Positions 17,367 through 36,698 of a stretch of DNA of 54,296 nucleotides are shown here, one piece after another. How positions within the stretch are numbered: position 1 is the first letter of the stretch; every line of letters begins with the position of its first letter. A model generated the notes under the pieces. That model was not told the DNA's origin. It saw only the letters and a list, made by a program, of their open reading frames with translations, and searched no databases. The stretch is from Candidatus Limicola stercorigallinarum (GTDB lineage Bacteria > Actinomycetota > Coriobacteriia > Coriobacteriales > Coriobacteriaceae), in contig DVID01000025.1 of NCBI GenBank assembly GCA_018711625.1, positions 1 through 54,296 on the forward strand, given 5' to 3'. The position numbers were made by a program, and so were the translations under genes.

Positions 17367-19511
17367 TTACGGCCTTTCGTCCGGGGCGATACGCGTGAGC
17401 TTGTTCACGGTTGTGAACTTGATGAACAACGGCACGTACTCAATGAAGACCGACGAGTTCTCCAGGCCATACCAGCGCACGGGAGAGCCGGCGACGCTGC
17501 GGATGGCGTACTTGAGCGCGATGGCCGTGCGCTCGCGCGGGTCCACGTCGCTCTCGGGCGCAAGGGTCTTACGCAGCATGCAGAAGCGGAACGAGCCAAT
17601 GGGGCCGGGCTTCTTGTACACCGAGTAGTCGTGCACCTGCACGGGCAGCTCCCCTGTGGCCGAGAGGTCGGTGACCACCTGGCGCAGGTAGGCGTTCACG
17701 CGCTGGTTGACCTTATAACCCAAGAACAGGTGCACACGGAACACGTAATCGGTGCCAAACGATTCCACCGAATAGGCGTGTGTGTACGGGTCGTCCATAA
17801 CCTCAACGTTCACAAACCACCAGGCGCGCGCACGCTTGGGGTGCTTGTCCAGGATAGAGTAAAGGATGTCGCGGTCGAGGTAGTCGGTATTGGTGTCGTT
17901 GGTGAGGTAGATGAGGTTATCGCTCACCAGGTCGTAGGTGGTGTCGTCGCGCAGGCGCTCAAGCTGCTTTAGGTAGTTGCGCACCGGCAGCAGCGTGGCC
18001 TGACGACGTTCCACCGCCGTGCCCGCGTACCAGCTGAGCATGATGCCCATGATGAGGGCCGCAAGCAGGATGGTGAAGTAGCCGCCGTGGAAGAACTTTG
18101 TGAGCGAGGAGCCAAAGAAGAAGCCCTCGAGCGCCAGGAAGAACGCCAGAAAGACCCACGGCAGCACCTTGAGCTTTCGAATCTTGCGCAGGTAGAAGAA
18201 GAGCAGCACGGTTGTGGAGAGCATGGTGATGGTGATCGCCAGGCCGTATGCCGCCTCCATGTGTGCCGACGACTGGAAAAGAAGCACCACAATGACGCAG
18301 CCCACCCACATGACGTAGTTCACCATGGGGATGTAGAGCTGGCCCTTGGTCTCGGCGGGATAGAAAATCTGCATGTGCGGCATAAGGTCAAGGCGGCTCG
18401 CCTCAGAAACCAGGGAGAACGCGCCCGTGATAAGCGCCTGCGAGGCGATGATGGCGGCAAGCGCGGAGAGGATCACGCTGAAGGGGCGGATGCCGCCACC
18501 GAGCATCTGGAAGAAGGGGTTGAGGTCGCTTACGGCCGCAAGGTCGGCGTTGCCCTGGTTGGCAAGAAGCCAGGCTCCCTGTCCCAGGTAGTTGAGGATG
18601 AGGCAGACCTTAACAAAGGGCCACGTGGCGTAGATGTTGCCGCGACCCACATGGCCCATGTCGGAGTAGAGCGCCTCGGCACCGGTGGTGGCGAGAAAGC
18701 AGCTGCCCAGAATCATGATGCCGGCAAGGTTGTGGGACGAGAACAAGAACTGAATGCCGTAGAGCGGGTTGATGGCCAGCAAGATGATGGGGTTGCCCAG
18801 CACATACACAAGGCCGCTTACGCCCAGGAACAAAAACCAGAACGTCATAACCGGGCCGAAGGCGCGGCCAATCTTCGAGGTGCCGGCGCGCTGCACGGCA
18901 AACAGGATGCACACGATCACCAGCGTGATGGCGACCACGTTCATCTGGTTGTCGCCTATGAGTGCGTGCATCTCTGGGATGGTGCGCAAGCCCTCGACCG
19001 CGGTGGTGATGGTAACGGCGGGCGTGAGCACGCCGTCGGCAAGGAGTGCCGAGCCGCCGAGAATGGCGGGGATGATGAGCCATTTGCCAAAGCGGCGCAC
19101 CAAGCTAAAGAGGGCGAAGATGCCGCCTTCGCCGTGGTTGTCGGCCTTGAGCGAAATGAGGACATACTTCACCGTGGTGAGCAGGGTGACCGTCCAGATA
19201 ACCAGGGACAGCGCACCCAGCACAAACTCCTCGGTGACGTTCATGATGCCGCCCTGGCCCGCAAGGAGCGCCTTGGTGACGTACATAGGCGACGTGCCGA
19301 TATCGCCGTACACCACGCCGAGGGTGACGAGCATCATGGCGATGCTCACCGGGATGGAGCCACCGTGATGCGGCTCATGATTCACCACTTTGGCGGTACG
19401 GGTGTGCGAAGGTTCCTTTTTGTGTTGCAAGGACTTGGGGTCAGGCGGGGCAGCGACACCGTCGGTTTCGCCGAGGTCGTCGGCAGACTCAATATCTGAT
19501 TGTTGGGACAT
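17367..19511 (-). CDS. kup: Kup-type potassium uptake transporter
   Basis: The 714-residue protein is a KUP/HAK/KT potassium-proton symporter. After a 55-residue hydrophilic N-terminus comes the family signature GVVYGDIGTSPMY, then about twelve membrane helices (including DGVLTPAVTITTAVEGL and TTGAEALYSDMGHVG), and a cytoplasmic C-terminal domain of about 200 residues. I prefer ATG 19511 over the upstream ATGs because GAGGAG lies seven bases before it. A TGCTATAAT promoter sits about 90 bases upstream. I looked for a c-di-AMP (ydaO) riboswitch in the leader and found none; the leader is too short. Confidence 0.93.
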   Translation of the reverse strand: MSQQSDIESADDLGETDGVAAPPDPKSLQHKKEPSHTRTAKVVNHEPHHGGSIPVSIAMMLVTLGVVYGDIGTSPMYVTKALLAGQGGIMNVTEEFVLGALSLVIWTVTLLTTVKYVLISLKADNHGEGGIFALFSLVRRFGKWLIIPAILGGSALLADGVLTPAVTITTAVEGLRTIPEMHALIGDNQMNVVAITLVIVCILFAVQRAGTSKIGRAFGPVMTFWFLFLGVSGLVYVLGNPIILLAINPLYGIQFLFSSHNLAGIMILGSCFLATTGAEALYSDMGHVGRGNIYATWPFVKVCLILNYLGQGAWLLANQGNADLAAVSDLNPFFQMLGGGIRPFSVILSALAAIIASQALITGAFSLVSEASRLDLMPHMQIFYPAETKGQLYIPMVNYVMWVGCVIVVLLFQSSAHMEAAYGLAITITMLSTTVLLFFYLRKIRKLKVLPWVFLAFFLALEGFFFGSSLTKFFHGGYFTILLAALIMGIMLSWYAGTAVERRQATLLPVRNYLKQLERLRDDTTYDLVSDNLIYLTNDTNTDYLDRDILYSILDKHPKRARAWWFVNVEVMDDPYTHAYSVESFGTDYVFRVHLFLGYKVNQRVNAYLRQVVTDLSATGELPVQVHDYSVYKKPGPIGSFRFCMLRKTLAPESDVDPRERTAIALKYAIRSVAGSPVRWYGLENSSVFIEYVPLFIKFTTVNKLTRIAPDERP

Positions 19512-19599
19512 GTGAGTGCTCCTCGTCATTATCGGATAGAGCCAGCCATGCATTCATGCTGGTCAGGCTCGTGCGCACGACTAAAATGCGCGATATGCC

Positions 19600-19688: not shown

Positions 19689-22142
19689 CTACATGCGGCG
19701 AACGAGGTAGCACTTATGGATACGCGGGTTGCGCGAAAAGTCCTCTGGGATGGTCTGGGCGGTGATGTCAGTGAGCTCAACGCCCAGACGCGCAAGCTCG
19801 GCCGTGCGCGGTTTGAAGGTACGCAGGTTGCACGAGAAGATCGCCTCGCCGTCGTCGGTGAGTAGGTCAGCCACACCGCCCAAGAGCTCCACTTGGTCGC
19901 GCTGCACGTCAAAGCTCGACCGCGCCATCTTGGCCGAATTGGAGAATGTGGGCGGGTCGCAAAAAATGAGGTCCCAGCGGTTGGCGGTTTCGCGTTGCCA
20001 GGCAATCCAGTCCAGCACGTCGGCACGCACAAAATGGTGCCTGGGGCCGTCAAAGCCGTTGAGGTGCATGTTGCGCTCGGCCCAATCGAGGTAGGTGTTG
20101 GAGAGGTCCACGGTCACCGTTTCCTCCACACCAGCATCCGCCGCATAGCAGGTGGCCGTGCCGGTGTAGGCAAACAGGTTGAGGAACCAGCGGCGGCCGT
20201 GCGCGTGCTCGCGCACAAGCGAGCGCGTGATGCGGTGGTCGAGGAAGATGCCCGTGTCCAGGCGTTCGTCGAGATTGACGGCAAAGGTGAGGCCGCTTTC
20301 CTCGATGAGGGGCGTGGCGGCAGAGCTTGCCGCGCGCTTGCCCGCGTGCGCCTGAGCATACTGCGAGCCGCCGCGGGCGCGTTGGCGCGCTTTGGCAAAT
20401 ACGTGGTTCTGGGGCACGCCGAGTACCTGCGGGGCGATGGCAAGCACATCGAGCATGCGCGCTTGGGCTCGCGCGGGATCGATGCTTTTAGGTGGCGCAT
20501 ATTCAGCAATCACCAGCCAGCGGCCCGGTGTTGCGGCAGAACCCTCGTAGAGGTCGATGGCGACGGCGTAGTCGGGAAGGTCGGCGTCATAGACGCGGTA
20601 GCAGGTGATACCGGTGCGCTTTGCCCATTTGCGGCGCAGGCGGGCAACCTTCTTCAAGCGATGCGCAAACTGCTCCGACTCGGGGATGAGCGCCGGGATG
20701 CGCGTACCGTCACCGAGGTCGACGATGGTTTCGGTGAGTGCGGGCGCCGGCGAAGGGGTGGGTGCGGGCGAAGGCGCGGCGGAAGCTGCGGCTGCCGGGG
20801 CTCCCACCGTTGCCGCCGTAGCTGGGGCTGTGGGTGCAGCGGGGAAGGCGGCATGCTGACCGGGCTGCTTGGTGTAGCGGGCTTCCTCTGCGGCATCTGC
20901 CGGTGCTTCGGTAGCATCCTGGGGAGCTGCGTAGCAGCAGATTGTCGCTTCTTCGTTGTTGGGACGCACAGCAACTGAGCGCGTGCTTGCGCCCAGAACG
21001 GGCTTTAGCGAGAGCTCGCGCGTGAGTGCTGCCAGGGGGAAGCTAGCAAGGCGGGCATCCAGGCGCAGATGTCGCACGCGGGCAAGTAACGCCGGCTGAG
21101 CGGTGAGGGAAACCTCGGTGGCGTCCGCCACAATGCCGCCGCGCGTGCTGTCTGCCGCCTCGGTGCCATGCCCCACGCCCGTCTTTACCAGGGCGCGCGA
21201 CCAGGCTGCTTCACTGGGCTCAACCACGCGCACCCATGGGTCGAGCCCGGCGGATTGCACCAAGCGTTGGGTAAGCGAGCGGGCCTGCGCGCTGTCGTCG
21301 CAGGCAATGATGCGCCCGCAGGTGCGCTCGGCCGCGGCCGCTCGTGCGTGCGCCTCTTTCACCAGCGCCTCCCACGCCGTGTCATCGAAAGCCGCCCAGC
21401 CTTTAAAACCCCAGCGCGCGCGGTCAAGGCCTGGCGCACGGTCAGCCAGGATGCTCGCTGCCTCCAGCACCATGCCGCCGCCGGCGCAGGAAGCATCAAG
21501 CAGGAGTGCCCGCGGGGCGTCCGCTTGGCTATGCGCTGTCTGGCAGGTCTCTGTCCATGAAAGTTCTGCGAGCACGCGTGCTGCATAGTCGGGGCGCAGC
21601 ACATGGGCTTCGCGGCCGCTTTCGGCGCTCACCGCTCGGCGCGGCAGGCGCTTGAACAGGGGGTCTCCCGAGAGGTCAAACGCCACGGAGGCGCGATTCT
21701 TGCGGATGGTGAGCGTGAGGTGCGCGTCCGGGTGGTCCACTTCAACCCGGGGTCGCTGGCCTGTGACCTCAAGAAGGCGGTCACAGATGGCGTCTTTTAG
21801 CCTGAGGGCTGCAAAATGCGAGTTGGAGAGCGCGGGGTTGGTGCCGCGCGCAGAGACAGCGATGGTGGCGCCAGCGCGGAGCACCTGCTCCCATGCAAGC
21901 GCGCGTCCACCAGCGTAGAGCTCGTCGGCGTTTGCGGCACCAAAGCGGCCCAGCACACAAAACACTCGGCTCGCAAGGCGCGACCACAAGCATATCCGCA
22001 GGCCGCAGGTGGCATCTCCCGCAAAGGAAACGCGGCCCTTAAGCGGGCGCACCTGCGCGGCGCCCAGCGCCTTCAGCTCGTGGGCCAGCGCCTGCTCAAA
22101 GCCAGTGGGGCAGCTGGCGTAGTACTCCATCGCGAGGTCCAT
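19689..22142 (-). CDS. rlmL: RlmK/RlmL-type bifunctional 23S rRNA methyltransferase; RlmL half looks degenerate
   Basis: The 817-residue protein has the RlmKL layout: THUMP (about 1-155, CPTGFEQALAHELKALG), an RlmL-like N2-guanine methyltransferase domain (to about 395), an Ala/Pro-rich linker (about 405-465), and an RlmK-like N7-guanine domain (FAYTGTATCYA, DLIFCDPPTFSNS near 730). In the RlmL half, motif I is DASCAGGGM instead of the usual DPxCGSGT, and where NPPYG is expected (near 340) the sequence reads ADATEVS. So the m2G2445 activity is doubtful while the m7G2069 half looks intact. CGGAG precedes the ATG. It follows the DeoR-type gene by 26 bases on the same strand. Confidence 0.88.
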   Translation of the reverse strand: MDLAMEYYASCPTGFEQALAHELKALGAAQVRPLKGRVSFAGDATCGLRICLWSRLASRVFCVLGRFGAANADELYAGGRALAWEQVLRAGATIAVSARGTNPALSNSHFAALRLKDAICDRLLEVTGQRPRVEVDHPDAHLTLTIRKNRASVAFDLSGDPLFKRLPRRAVSAESGREAHVLRPDYAARVLAELSWTETCQTAHSQADAPRALLLDASCAGGGMVLEAASILADRAPGLDRARWGFKGWAAFDDTAWEALVKEAHARAAAAERTCGRIIACDDSAQARSLTQRLVQSAGLDPWVRVVEPSEAAWSRALVKTGVGHGTEAADSTRGGIVADATEVSLTAQPALLARVRHLRLDARLASFPLAALTRELSLKPVLGASTRSVAVRPNNEEATICCYAAPQDATEAPADAAEEARYTKQPGQHAAFPAAPTAPATAATVGAPAAAASAAPSPAPTPSPAPALTETIVDLGDGTRIPALIPESEQFAHRLKKVARLRRKWAKRTGITCYRVYDADLPDYAVAIDLYEGSAATPGRWLVIAEYAPPKSIDPARAQARMLDVLAIAPQVLGVPQNHVFAKARQRARGGSQYAQAHAGKRAASSAATPLIEESGLTFAVNLDERLDTGIFLDHRITRSLVREHAHGRRWFLNLFAYTGTATCYAADAGVEETVTVDLSNTYLDWAERNMHLNGFDGPRHHFVRADVLDWIAWQRETANRWDLIFCDPPTFSNSAKMARSSFDVQRDQVELLGGVADLLTDDGEAIFSCNLRTFKPRTAELARLGVELTDITAQTIPEDFSRNPRIHKCYLVRRM

Positions 22143-22168: not shown

Positions 22169-22981
22169 CTAGATGCGCGGGAAGGTTGTGGGGTCGTCGG
22201 CAACAATGAGGGCGGGCTGATGATGTGTCTTTTCAACCGCATGCCGCAGCACCGCCTCCGGGTCCGTCTCGGTGATCACCGTATCGAAGTCCGAAAGCGT
22301 AGCAAACTGATAAAAGCTCGTTTTGCCCACCTTGCTTTCGTCGAGCATCATAAAACGCTGGCGCGAATTGGAGTTGTACACCTGCTTGATGCTCACGCTA
22401 AAGTCATGCTCCACGGTAAAGCCGCGATCGGGATGAAAGCCATCGGCGCTCACAAAGGCCTTGTCGGCGTAGAGCTTCGACATGCTGTCGAGCGTAAGCG
22501 AACCCGCCACATACATATGTCCTTTGCGCAGCGTGCCGCCAAGCAAGAGCACCTCGGCATGCGGCAGGTTGAAGCTGGCGTAGTTTGCGATGGCAAGGTC
22601 GCCGGTGATGATGGTGATGTCGCGTTTCTCGGTAAGCTGCTGCACAAAGTAGAAGCCCGTGGTGCCAATATCGGCAATGATGACGTCGCCGTTAGAGACA
22701 AACGACGCAGCTATAGCGCCGATGGTGCGCTTGGCCTGCACATTGAAGTTGATGCGCTCTTCGGGGTAGGAGATGGAGGCGGCACGCGACCGCGAGACGG
22801 CGCCGCCGCGTATGCGTCGGATTTTGCCCTGCGACTCAAGCGTCATAAGGTCGTGCCGGGCGGTAACCTCAGAGACGCCGTAATGTTCGGTGATGTCTCC
22901 AATCGAGATGCTCGGCTTGTCTGCCAGCCAGTTCATGATGTAGCGATGCCGCTCCGCGGCGGCCGTGTCGTCACGTGCCAT
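22169..22981 (-). CDS. DeoR-family transcriptional regulator of the adjacent PTS operon
   Basis: The 270-residue protein has the DeoR helix-turn-helix at about residues 10-60 (ISIGDITEHYGVSEVTARHDLMTLESQGKIRRIRGGAV) and a DeoRC sugar-phosphate-binding domain with ADIGTTGFYF and LLLGGTLRKGH. Members usually repress sugar operons and release DNA when a sugar phosphate binds. It is divergent from the transaldolase-PTS operon across a 332-base AT-rich region with a palindrome over its own likely start point, so it probably controls both. It also lies 26 bases upstream of the RlmK/RlmL gene, which may be co-transcribed. Confidence 0.92.
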   Translation of the reverse strand: MARDDTAAAERHRYIMNWLADKPSISIGDITEHYGVSEVTARHDLMTLESQGKIRRIRGGAVSRSRAASISYPEERINFNVQAKRTIGAIAASFVSNGDVIIADIGTTGFYFVQQLTEKRDITIITGDLAIANYASFNLPHAEVLLLGGTLRKGHMYVAGSLTLDSMSKLYADKAFVSADGFHPDRGFTVEHDFSVSIKQVYNSNSRQRFMMLDESKVGKTSFYQFATLSDFDTVITETDPEAVLRHAVEKTHHQPALIVADDPTTFPRI

Positions 22982-35248: not shown

Positions 35249-35552
35249 GAAGAGGTGTTCGTGCGGCTGCCCTGCGTGGGCAGCCGCTTGCCTTAGGCAC
35301 GTTGCTGCGCTTCTGCGCGCAGGCATTTGTGTTTTTGCCCGGGAGAAGGGCCGCTTGCCCATGGGCGATGCACTGGCAACAGCGCCCTGTGCGCACGTGC
35401 TGCCTTGCCCTTTCCTAATGCCCGGGTTGCGCGGTAAGAATCGGGGAAGCTTTGCGCGCACATTTGAGACAAACGGATGACCCTCGGCAGGTAAGGTGAG
35501 GGCATCTGCCCACGCTCGCACACACGAACGCTCACGCACAAGGAGGTACGCC
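35249..35552. other. Spacer between prfA and prmC
   Basis: This 304-base stretch contains the prfA terminator at 35263-35287 and no gene. I see a GGGCATCTGCCC mini-hairpin near 35503 and no convincing promoter for prmC, only TAAGGT-like hexamers. Confidence 0.5.
35263..35287 (+). terminator. Terminator after prfA
   Basis: GCGGCTGCCC and GGGCAGCCGC form a ten-base stem with a five-base loop, 14 bases after the stop, followed by TTGCCTT. Confidence 0.8.
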
Positions 35553-36698
35553 ATGGATGGCGAGGTCTGGACTGTCAGGCGCTGCATGGATTGGACGGTT
35601 GACTATCTGTCTCGGTTGGGCGACGAGCGTCCGCGGCTTACGGCGGAGTGGCTTTTGGGTGCTGCAACGGGGCTCAAGCGCATCGAGCTCTATATGAATA
35701 TGGATCGGCCCCTCTCGGCCGAGGAGCGCGGCGTGATGCATCACGCTGTGGTGCGCCGGCGCTCGGGCGAGCCGCTCCAATATATTGTGGGCGAGACAGC
35801 GTTTCGCTCGCTTGACGTGTGGTGCGAACCCGGTGTGCTCATCCCACGCCCCGAGACCGAGATGCTCGTTGAGGTGGTGCTTGAGCACTTGGACCGTGCG
35901 GTGCTTAACGTGGGGCCCGAGGGCTTCAGGGCATGGCGTGAGCGGATAGAGCTGCCATGGAATGCCGAGGTGGATCAGGCCCGTCGTGAGGAGGCGGAGC
36001 GCCTGCGTCAGGAGCGTGCAGAGGCGAGTGCCGAAGGTGCCGCTGCGGAGGCGGCGAGCGCGGAAGCCGACGGGGACGTGCCCGCGCCAGCATCGCAGGA
36101 GGTTCCTGCCCAAGAAGCACTGCCCCATGCGGCTAACGACCCCGCCGCCGCAGACGAGCTGCCCTGCGCCCGCGTGCTCGAAGTGGGCTGTGGAACGGGC
36201 TGCATCGCGCTTTCGCTTGTGGCGGAGCGCCCGAATCGTGTGACGTGCGTTGCCATCGATATAGACGAGCATGCGTGTGACCTTGCCCGGCGCAATCGCG
36301 ACCGCCACGCGCTCACGTCCACCGAGGTTGATATCCGTCAGGGCGATTTGGTGGCTCCGGTGCGGCCCGATGAGTTTGGCACCTTTGATGTGCTCGTCTC
36401 CAACCCGCCGTATATCCCGAGCGCGGTTATGGCAGACCTTCCTCGCGAGGTAGCGCAGTTTGAGCCGCACCTGGCGCTTGACGGCGGCGCCGATGGCCTT
36501 GATGTATTTCGACGCTTGCTCGCCGCGGCTCCGCAGATGCTTCGCCCTGGCGGTCTTTTGGCCTGTGAGCTCTTTGAGGACGCTACGGAGCCGGCGGCCG
36601 AGCTCTGCCGTGCGGCAGGCTTTGAGGAGGTCCGCGTCGTGTCCGACCTCACACGTCGTCCGCGCTTTGTGCTGGCGCGTGTGCCTATGGCTCGATAA
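35553..36698 (+). CDS. prmC: Release factor glutamine methyltransferase with large insertion
   Basis: The protein (381 residues) N5-methylates the glutamine of the GGQ motif of release factors. The N-terminal helical domain (LTAEWLLGAATGL, RRRSGEPLQYIVGETAF), LIPRPETEMLVE near residue 100, SAM motif VLEVGCGTGCIAL near 208 and catalytic NPPY at 284-287 are intact. Between the PRPETE and the SAM motif there are about 100 residues instead of the usual 20 or so; the extra part is Ala/Glu-rich (about 140-200). Family length is about 280. AAGGAGG lies six bases before ATG 35553. It sits downstream of prfA, its substrate's gene, as is common. Confidence 0.95.
   Translation: MDGEVWTVRRCMDWTVDYLSRLGDERPRLTAEWLLGAATGLKRIELYMNMDRPLSAEERGVMHHAVVRRRSGEPLQYIVGETAFRSLDVWCEPGVLIPRPETEMLVEVVLEHLDRAVLNVGPEGFRAWRERIELPWNAEVDQARREEAERLRQERAEASAEGAAAEAASAEADGDVPAPASQEVPAQEALPHAANDPAAADELPCARVLEVGCGTGCIALSLVAERPNRVTCVAIDIDEHACDLARRNRDRHALTSTEVDIRQGDLVAPVRPDEFGTFDVLVSNPPYIPSAVMADLPREVAQFEPHLALDGGADGLDVFRRLLAAAPQMLRPGGLLACELFEDATEPAAELCRAAGFEEVRVVSDLTRRPRFVLARVPMAR

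Follow-up and report, generated by a model that had tools for sequence, protein, structure and literature searches.

A degenerate, putatively pseudoenzymatic RlmL half in the fused RlmK/RlmL protein of Candidatus Limicola stercorigallinarum and its relatives

Background

Bacteria can often do without a given rRNA modification enzyme, and whether such an enzyme is kept for modification or for RNA handling is a question whose two sides are separated naturally by lineages of the order considered here. The best solved relatives of the protein described in this report are the structures of Escherichia coli RlmKL (YcbY; PDB 3v97 and 3v8v), which has the same fused architecture and carries CGSGT and NPPYG in its RlmL half. 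A 2024 study (PMC11194073), conducted in an E. coli strain without ten modification enzymes, reports that m2G2445 is lost with the laboratory mutant RlmL(N309A), which nevertheless stimulates 50S assembly as the wild-type protein does. According to the same source, RlmK alone does not stimulate 50S assembly, the assembly effect of RlmL is ascribed to unwinding of helix 74, and knocking out rlmKL alone in E. coli brings no significant change in ribosome profile.

The protein under study is encoded in a window of 54,296 nucleotides (the whole stretch of DNA analysed) from Candidatus Limicola stercorigallinarum. The CGSGT and NPPYG motifs of E. coli RlmKL are both replaced in it. As in RlmL(N309A), the asparagine of NPPY is changed; unlike that mutant, the window protein is natural and old, has several sites changed rather than one, and is known here from its sequence. 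We found no paper on degenerate RlmL or on reciprocal RlmKL halves in the open-licence literature. The degenerate RlmL half, taken together with second copies in a related family in which the opposite half has died, appears to be an unreported variant of the known fused enzyme. Three types of lineage can be distinguished: those whose protein would be without RlmL chemistry, those that have dropped the half, and those in which a second copy restores the RlmL motifs and loses RlmK. These lineages offer a comparison among natural proteins that parallels the E. coli N309A result, predict clearly which bacteria would lack m2G2445, and open a way to test what such enzymes do apart from their chemistry.

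Results

Architecture of the fusion and loss of the RlmL motifs

The fusion gene and its elements are listed in Table 1. Its neighbours lie on the same strand and are a K+ transporter gene (K_trans, window 17367-19553) and a gene for a DeoR-type regulator (window 22169-22981), which ends 26 bases ahead of the fusion start. E. coli RlmKL matches the window protein with 150 bits over the N-terminal stretch of RlmL and 280 bits over RlmK, and differs from it in having no comparably long Ala/Pro-rich linker between the halves.

Table 1 Features of the RlmK/RlmL fusion gene (residues of the protein; coordinates of the window)
Feature	Residues	Window coordinates	Strand	Remarks
RlmK/RlmL fusion gene		19689..22142	-	817 aa; putative pseudo-RlmL half and intact RlmK half
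RlmL_1st ferredoxin-like domain	6-61	21960..22127	-	Pfam 66.7 bits, cut-off 27
THUMP domain, kept	69-155	21678..21938	-	Pfam 59.6 bits, cut-off 20.6
LRPDYAARV replacing the LKETLAA-type element before motif I	182-190	21573..21599	-	E175 equivalent changed in 25/25 f1
Altered SAM motif I, DASCAGGGM	216-224	21471..21497	-
APGLDRARWGFKGW element	236-249	21396..21437	-	R220, W223 and G224 equivalents 25/25; W228 24/25
Motif II place, ACDDSAQ	280-286	21285..21305	-	Acidic residue at E. coli D262 kept, 23/25
Motif IV place, VADATEVSLT	338-347	21102..21131	-	NPPY lost; VADATEVS = 338-345, 21108-21131
End of RlmL methyltransferase domain, RPNNEEATICCY		20931..20966	-	N367 equivalent lost, 0/25
Ala/Pro-rich linker between halves	405-487	20682..20930	-	Long; variable in f1
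RlmK half, intact	488-817	19692..20681	-	E. coli RlmKL C-terminal half, 279.6 bits
RlmK motif FCDPPTFSNS	727-736	19935..19964	-

A sequence-only reading of this DNA had described an RlmL half without its catalytic motifs beside an intact THUMP domain and an intact RlmK half, and profile searches bore this description out. THUMP and the Methyltrans_SAM profile of the RlmK half (78 bits) both exceed their Pfam cut-offs, and the RlmK half carries FLDHR, LNLFAYTG, DPPTFSNS and DVQRD, while UPF0020, the profile of the RlmL methyltransferase, stays below its cut-off (19.0 bits vs 22.3). The whole protein passes the NCBIfam RlmK/RlmL equivalog NF008748 (632.5 bits vs a cut-off of 466), so that automatic annotation would call it bifunctional. 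NF008748 is blind to the dead half, and fusions of this kind would be credited wrongly with m2G2445 activity by annotation at the equivalog level.

Motif I reads DASCAGGGM in the window protein vs DPMCGSGTL in E. coli, and the motif IV place reads VADATEVS vs LSNPPYGE, with DATE at the position of NPPY and D340 aligned to E. coli N309 (profile alignment; E. coli numbering checked). The earlier reading had allowed for an intact NPPY elsewhere in the domain, and a search for [ND]PP[YFWH] over the whole window protein found none. The loss is in fact broader than first described: the equivalents of E175 (LKETLAA to LRPDYAA), H160 and N367 are also changed, each in 25/25 sequences of the window organism's family (f1; other families are labelled f2 to f10, f5 being a two-copy family). 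Sequencing error was ruled out as a cause, because NPPY is absent from all 36 readable f1 fusions (0/26, and 0/10 in a further set).

Comparison of the 25 f1 sequences with intact RlmL by hhalign gave a probability of 100 over 205 aligned columns, and by this profile match the RlmL methyltransferase fold is retained along the full length of the domain. A structure prediction for residues 1-430, made with one relative as additional input, reached a mean pLDDT of 37.3 and a pTM of 0.30, and the model was discarded. To compare individual residues, positions near-invariant in 18 intact sequences were scored in 25 f1 rows. C8, E13, K113, D114, R162, E206, R220, W223 and G224 are kept in 25/25 rows, and P310, P311, Y312, E175, H160 and N367 in 0/25, with no aromatic consensus at the Y312 equivalent. 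The N309 equivalent is D in 20 rows and N in 4 (n=25). D195, C198, G201 and D262 are mostly kept, in 22-24 of the 25 rows (G201 22/25, D262 23/25). Since f1 has for the most part retained D340, the glycine-rich loop and D262, a SAM-like pocket, SAM binding or residual activity is possible. The APGLDRARWGFKGW element is retained even where motif I is destroyed.

Distribution of the degenerate half

Relatives were taken from a genome search; a contig search for related loci gave one distant match (L031). The window protein has a match in 37/40 sampled relatives, and an RlmK half is present in 124/149 genomes of the order. Motifs were read in 87 fusions from genomes chosen among search matches rather than at random; contig-end (G010b) and masked (G023) sequences were left out of the motif I and IV group statistics where unreadable. 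Besides f1, NPPY was read in 2/15 fusions of f2, 0/1 of f3, 2/2 of f4, 11/11 of f6, 0/4 of f7, 1/1 of f8, 2/2 of f9 and 0/1 of f10, in 0/19 natives and 2/2 second copies of f5, and in 2/2 of E. coli and a planctomycete. NPPY thus survives in five sister families, in part or in all of the fusions examined. The f10 fusion has IPPA at the NPPY place and keeps CGSG in motif I. A further 10 f1 and 9 f5 fusions gave 0/10 and 0/9, all with RlmK motifs. As judged from these counts, the loss of the RlmL motifs is a lineage trait of f1.

In other genomes the RlmL half is absent from the ORF altogether: five of f1 (G005, G013, G017, G024, G080), five of f2 (G060, G077, G103, G127, G153) and one of f3 (G026). 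Apart from G024, these encode RlmK-only proteins that are orthologous to the RlmK half of the window protein and differ from it in that neither the ORF nor the fetched neighbourhood contains an RlmL half. Because the G024 gene is divided between contig ends, the absence there is based also on a THUMP search, which found a single match in each of G005, G013, G017, G024 and G026. By these comparisons the RlmL half is lost outright in several lineages. RlmK-only loci at which relatives have the fusion include L035, L036, L037, L040, L089, L092, L097, L103, L104 and L138. Two further f1-type loci (L045 and L046, of G009 and G021) read DVSPQTG or DASPQAG at motif I and have lost motif II, with RAPG..R..WGFEGW kept.

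An RlmK tree of 96 rows requires at least 5 changes when intact RlmL is set against all other states, and 10 changes when intact, dead and absent are separate states. A single clade of all non-intact rows was rejected (AU test on the quick tree, p 0.006). All trees are quick ones with SH-aLRT support only, and their deep forks are weak. G010b, G034a, G132b and G154b were left out of the RlmK tree, G023 out of the RlmL tree, and s_G209 (contig end) out of the second-copy tree. The RlmK half is rare outside the order: at E 1e-45 it was found in 24/296 sampled genomes of the phylum, two of them outside the order. One of the two (G443, L242) has a fusion in which CGSGT, NPPYG and the RlmK motifs are all intact, so that the order may have acquired its fusion; the other (G463, L243) has RlmK only.

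Constraint on the dead half and its probable role

Nine f1 pairs, which have branches in common and are not independent, were used for estimates of dN/dS. The ratio is 0.08-0.26 (median 0.14) for the N-terminal and THUMP region and 0.06-0.29 (median 0.14) for RlmK, compared with a median of 0.29 for the part from motif I to WGF and 0.03-0.64 (median 0.31) for the motif IV part. Relative to RlmK, the divergence of THUMP is 1.04 in intact sequences, 1.35 in f1 and 1.29-1.48 across dead groups; that of the motif IV part is 1.51, 3.58 and 2.55-3.66, respectively. By both measures, then, the constraint on the RNA-binding part comes close to that on RlmK, and the catalytic part is relaxed, not neutral. 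With a homologous fold kept, catalytic residues lost and retention under selection, the RlmL half can be classed from its sequence as a pseudoenzyme.

Because the N309 residue and more have changed and the RNA-binding parts are kept, we favour the reading that pseudo-RlmL is kept for RNA binding and remodelling, and consider it rather probable. The likelihoods that we attach to this reading and to its three rivals overlap slightly. By analogy with E. coli RlmL, the dead half probably binds and unwinds RNA and helps assembly. With its fold, its THUMP RNA-binding part and its APG..R..WGF.GW element retained, it would bind 23S rRNA near helix 74 and help to remodel the rRNA there, which would assist large-subunit assembly, delivery of the RlmK half, or both. 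Counting against retention are the mild relaxation of THUMP itself, whose relative divergence exceeds the intact value, and the reported absence of a significant effect of the E. coli knockout on the ribosome profile. The dead half is also dispensable, since 11/94 in-order rows of the RlmK tree have no RlmL half, and it is plausible that any retained role is useful, not indispensable.

The relaxed methyltransferase region and the absence of the half from 5 f1, 5 f2 and 1 f3 rows would equally suit a decaying relic, that is, an RlmL half without function that persists through its fusion to a useful RlmK and is heading for deletion. The further decay of G009 and G021 would suit it as well, both belonging to the genus (g4) of the RlmK-only G005, G013, G017 and G024. 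We regard such a relic as unlikely, given that the constraint on the N-terminal and THUMP region is near that on RlmK, that R220, W223 and G224 are invariant in f1, and that most members of this large and deep family still carry the dead half. The proposal of the sequence-only reading that the domain is kept only for rRNA binding is accordingly no firmer than plausible: the near-RlmK constraint on THUMP and the assembly activity of RlmL(N309A) bear on it, as do the relatives that dropped the RlmL half.

Reciprocal decay in a two-copy family

In f5, 36/121 genomes (5/35 genera) hold a fusion with an intact-type UPF0020 of 75-151 bits. A match of 51.5 bits in G068 was not counted as RlmL, its locus (L108) having no match to the window protein. 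The native fusion is also present in 33 of the 36 genomes and was not found on searching the other three, G179, G221 and G246, of which G221 and G246 have assemblies 83% and 89% complete. All natives of the two-copy genomes (33/33) are without NPPY and have FLDHR, the NLF motif and PTFSNS; one, that of G163, still has CGSGT in motif I. The second copies (35, G179 being left out) show the reverse, with NPPY in 34/34 readable sequences, CGSG in 35/35, and PTFSNS, the NLF motif and FLDHR in 0/31 readable. They are thus the same fusion as the window protein with one half dead, but the opposite half (e.g. L119, L121, L173-L192). Second-copy loci also include L223-L238. The one fusion of G179 is intact in both of its halves.

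The second copies and G179 form one lineage (SH-aLRT 99) apart from the natives, and therefore come from an old second lineage, which may have arisen by either transfer or retained duplication. The simple reading is that each f5 copy lost what the other supplies: a live RlmL beside a decayed RlmK in the second copies implies that, of the two native halves, RlmK provides the lost function and RlmL does not. By the same simple reading, the native RlmL would have no function as an enzyme, and RlmL activity would be worth having in the two-copy genera. More tentatively, and with somewhat less confidence than for retention in f1, RlmL catalysis may have been switched off repeatedly in this order with the protein kept as an RNA-remodelling assembly factor, and methylation may have been restored in f5 by a second fusion lineage whose RlmK died. 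If so, the two half-dead enzymes would be a complementary pair with one modification each, both perhaps remodelling RNA.

The f5 natives have DLSW nearly fixed at the NPPY place (e.g. L050, L115), which preserves an acid and an aromatic residue. D is present at N309 in 19/19 of them and W at Y312 in 18/19; D at N309 in 20/25 f1 rows, glycine 201 in 22/25 and the CGSGT of the G163 native likewise agree with an RlmL half that would continue to transfer methyl groups through a non-canonical pocket, perhaps to another base. We consider this improbable. P310, P311 and Y312 are gone from every f1 row without an aromatic consensus, E175 and N367 are lost, the motif IV region is relaxed, and the added f5 copy has an intact RlmL beside its decaying RlmK, as though the native RlmL were idle.

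Substitute enzymes and target bases

The window organism's own genome (about 95% complete) has 1 match to the window protein, 2 to UPF0020 and 2 to THUMP, and none of these searches found another RlmL. The UPF0020 match at window 35496-36698 was rejected as a PrmC-type protein, the other UPF0020 match as a uracil-5 methyltransferase, and the second THUMP protein as ThiI. Across f1, an intact UPF0020 at E 1e-12 was found in 0/65 genomes, 57 of them at least 90% complete, by a search positive in 11/14 control genomes. That m2G2445 is still made in the window genome by an unrelated or undetected enzyme, whose gene could be missing from the assembly or, if non-homologous, be invisible to homology search, is very doubtful in light of the f1 result and of the 36/121 f5 genomes positive in the same search.

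With NPPY, canonical motif I, E175 and N367 all lost, the catalytic pocket is gone, and m2G2445 is most likely missing in the window organism; the RlmK half is expected to make m7G2069. The missing m2G2445 activity suspected in the sequence-only reading thereby gains strong support: several active-site blocks are altered jointly, the loss is repeated in other families, searches of the window organism's genome gave no spare RlmL, and f5 keeps an intact-RlmL copy, with its own RlmK half decaying, beside dead copies.

A change of the target bases was considered for the relatives, the window organism's own assembly having no 23S match. Of 27 23S loci, 22 were readable for position 2069 and 23 for 2445; 4 were fragments, and one more was unreadable at 2069. 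A target-base change was rejected: the 18 genomes whose 23S could be read, among them dead, absent and intact RlmL cases, show no alteration of G2069, of G2445 or of the bases flanking them.
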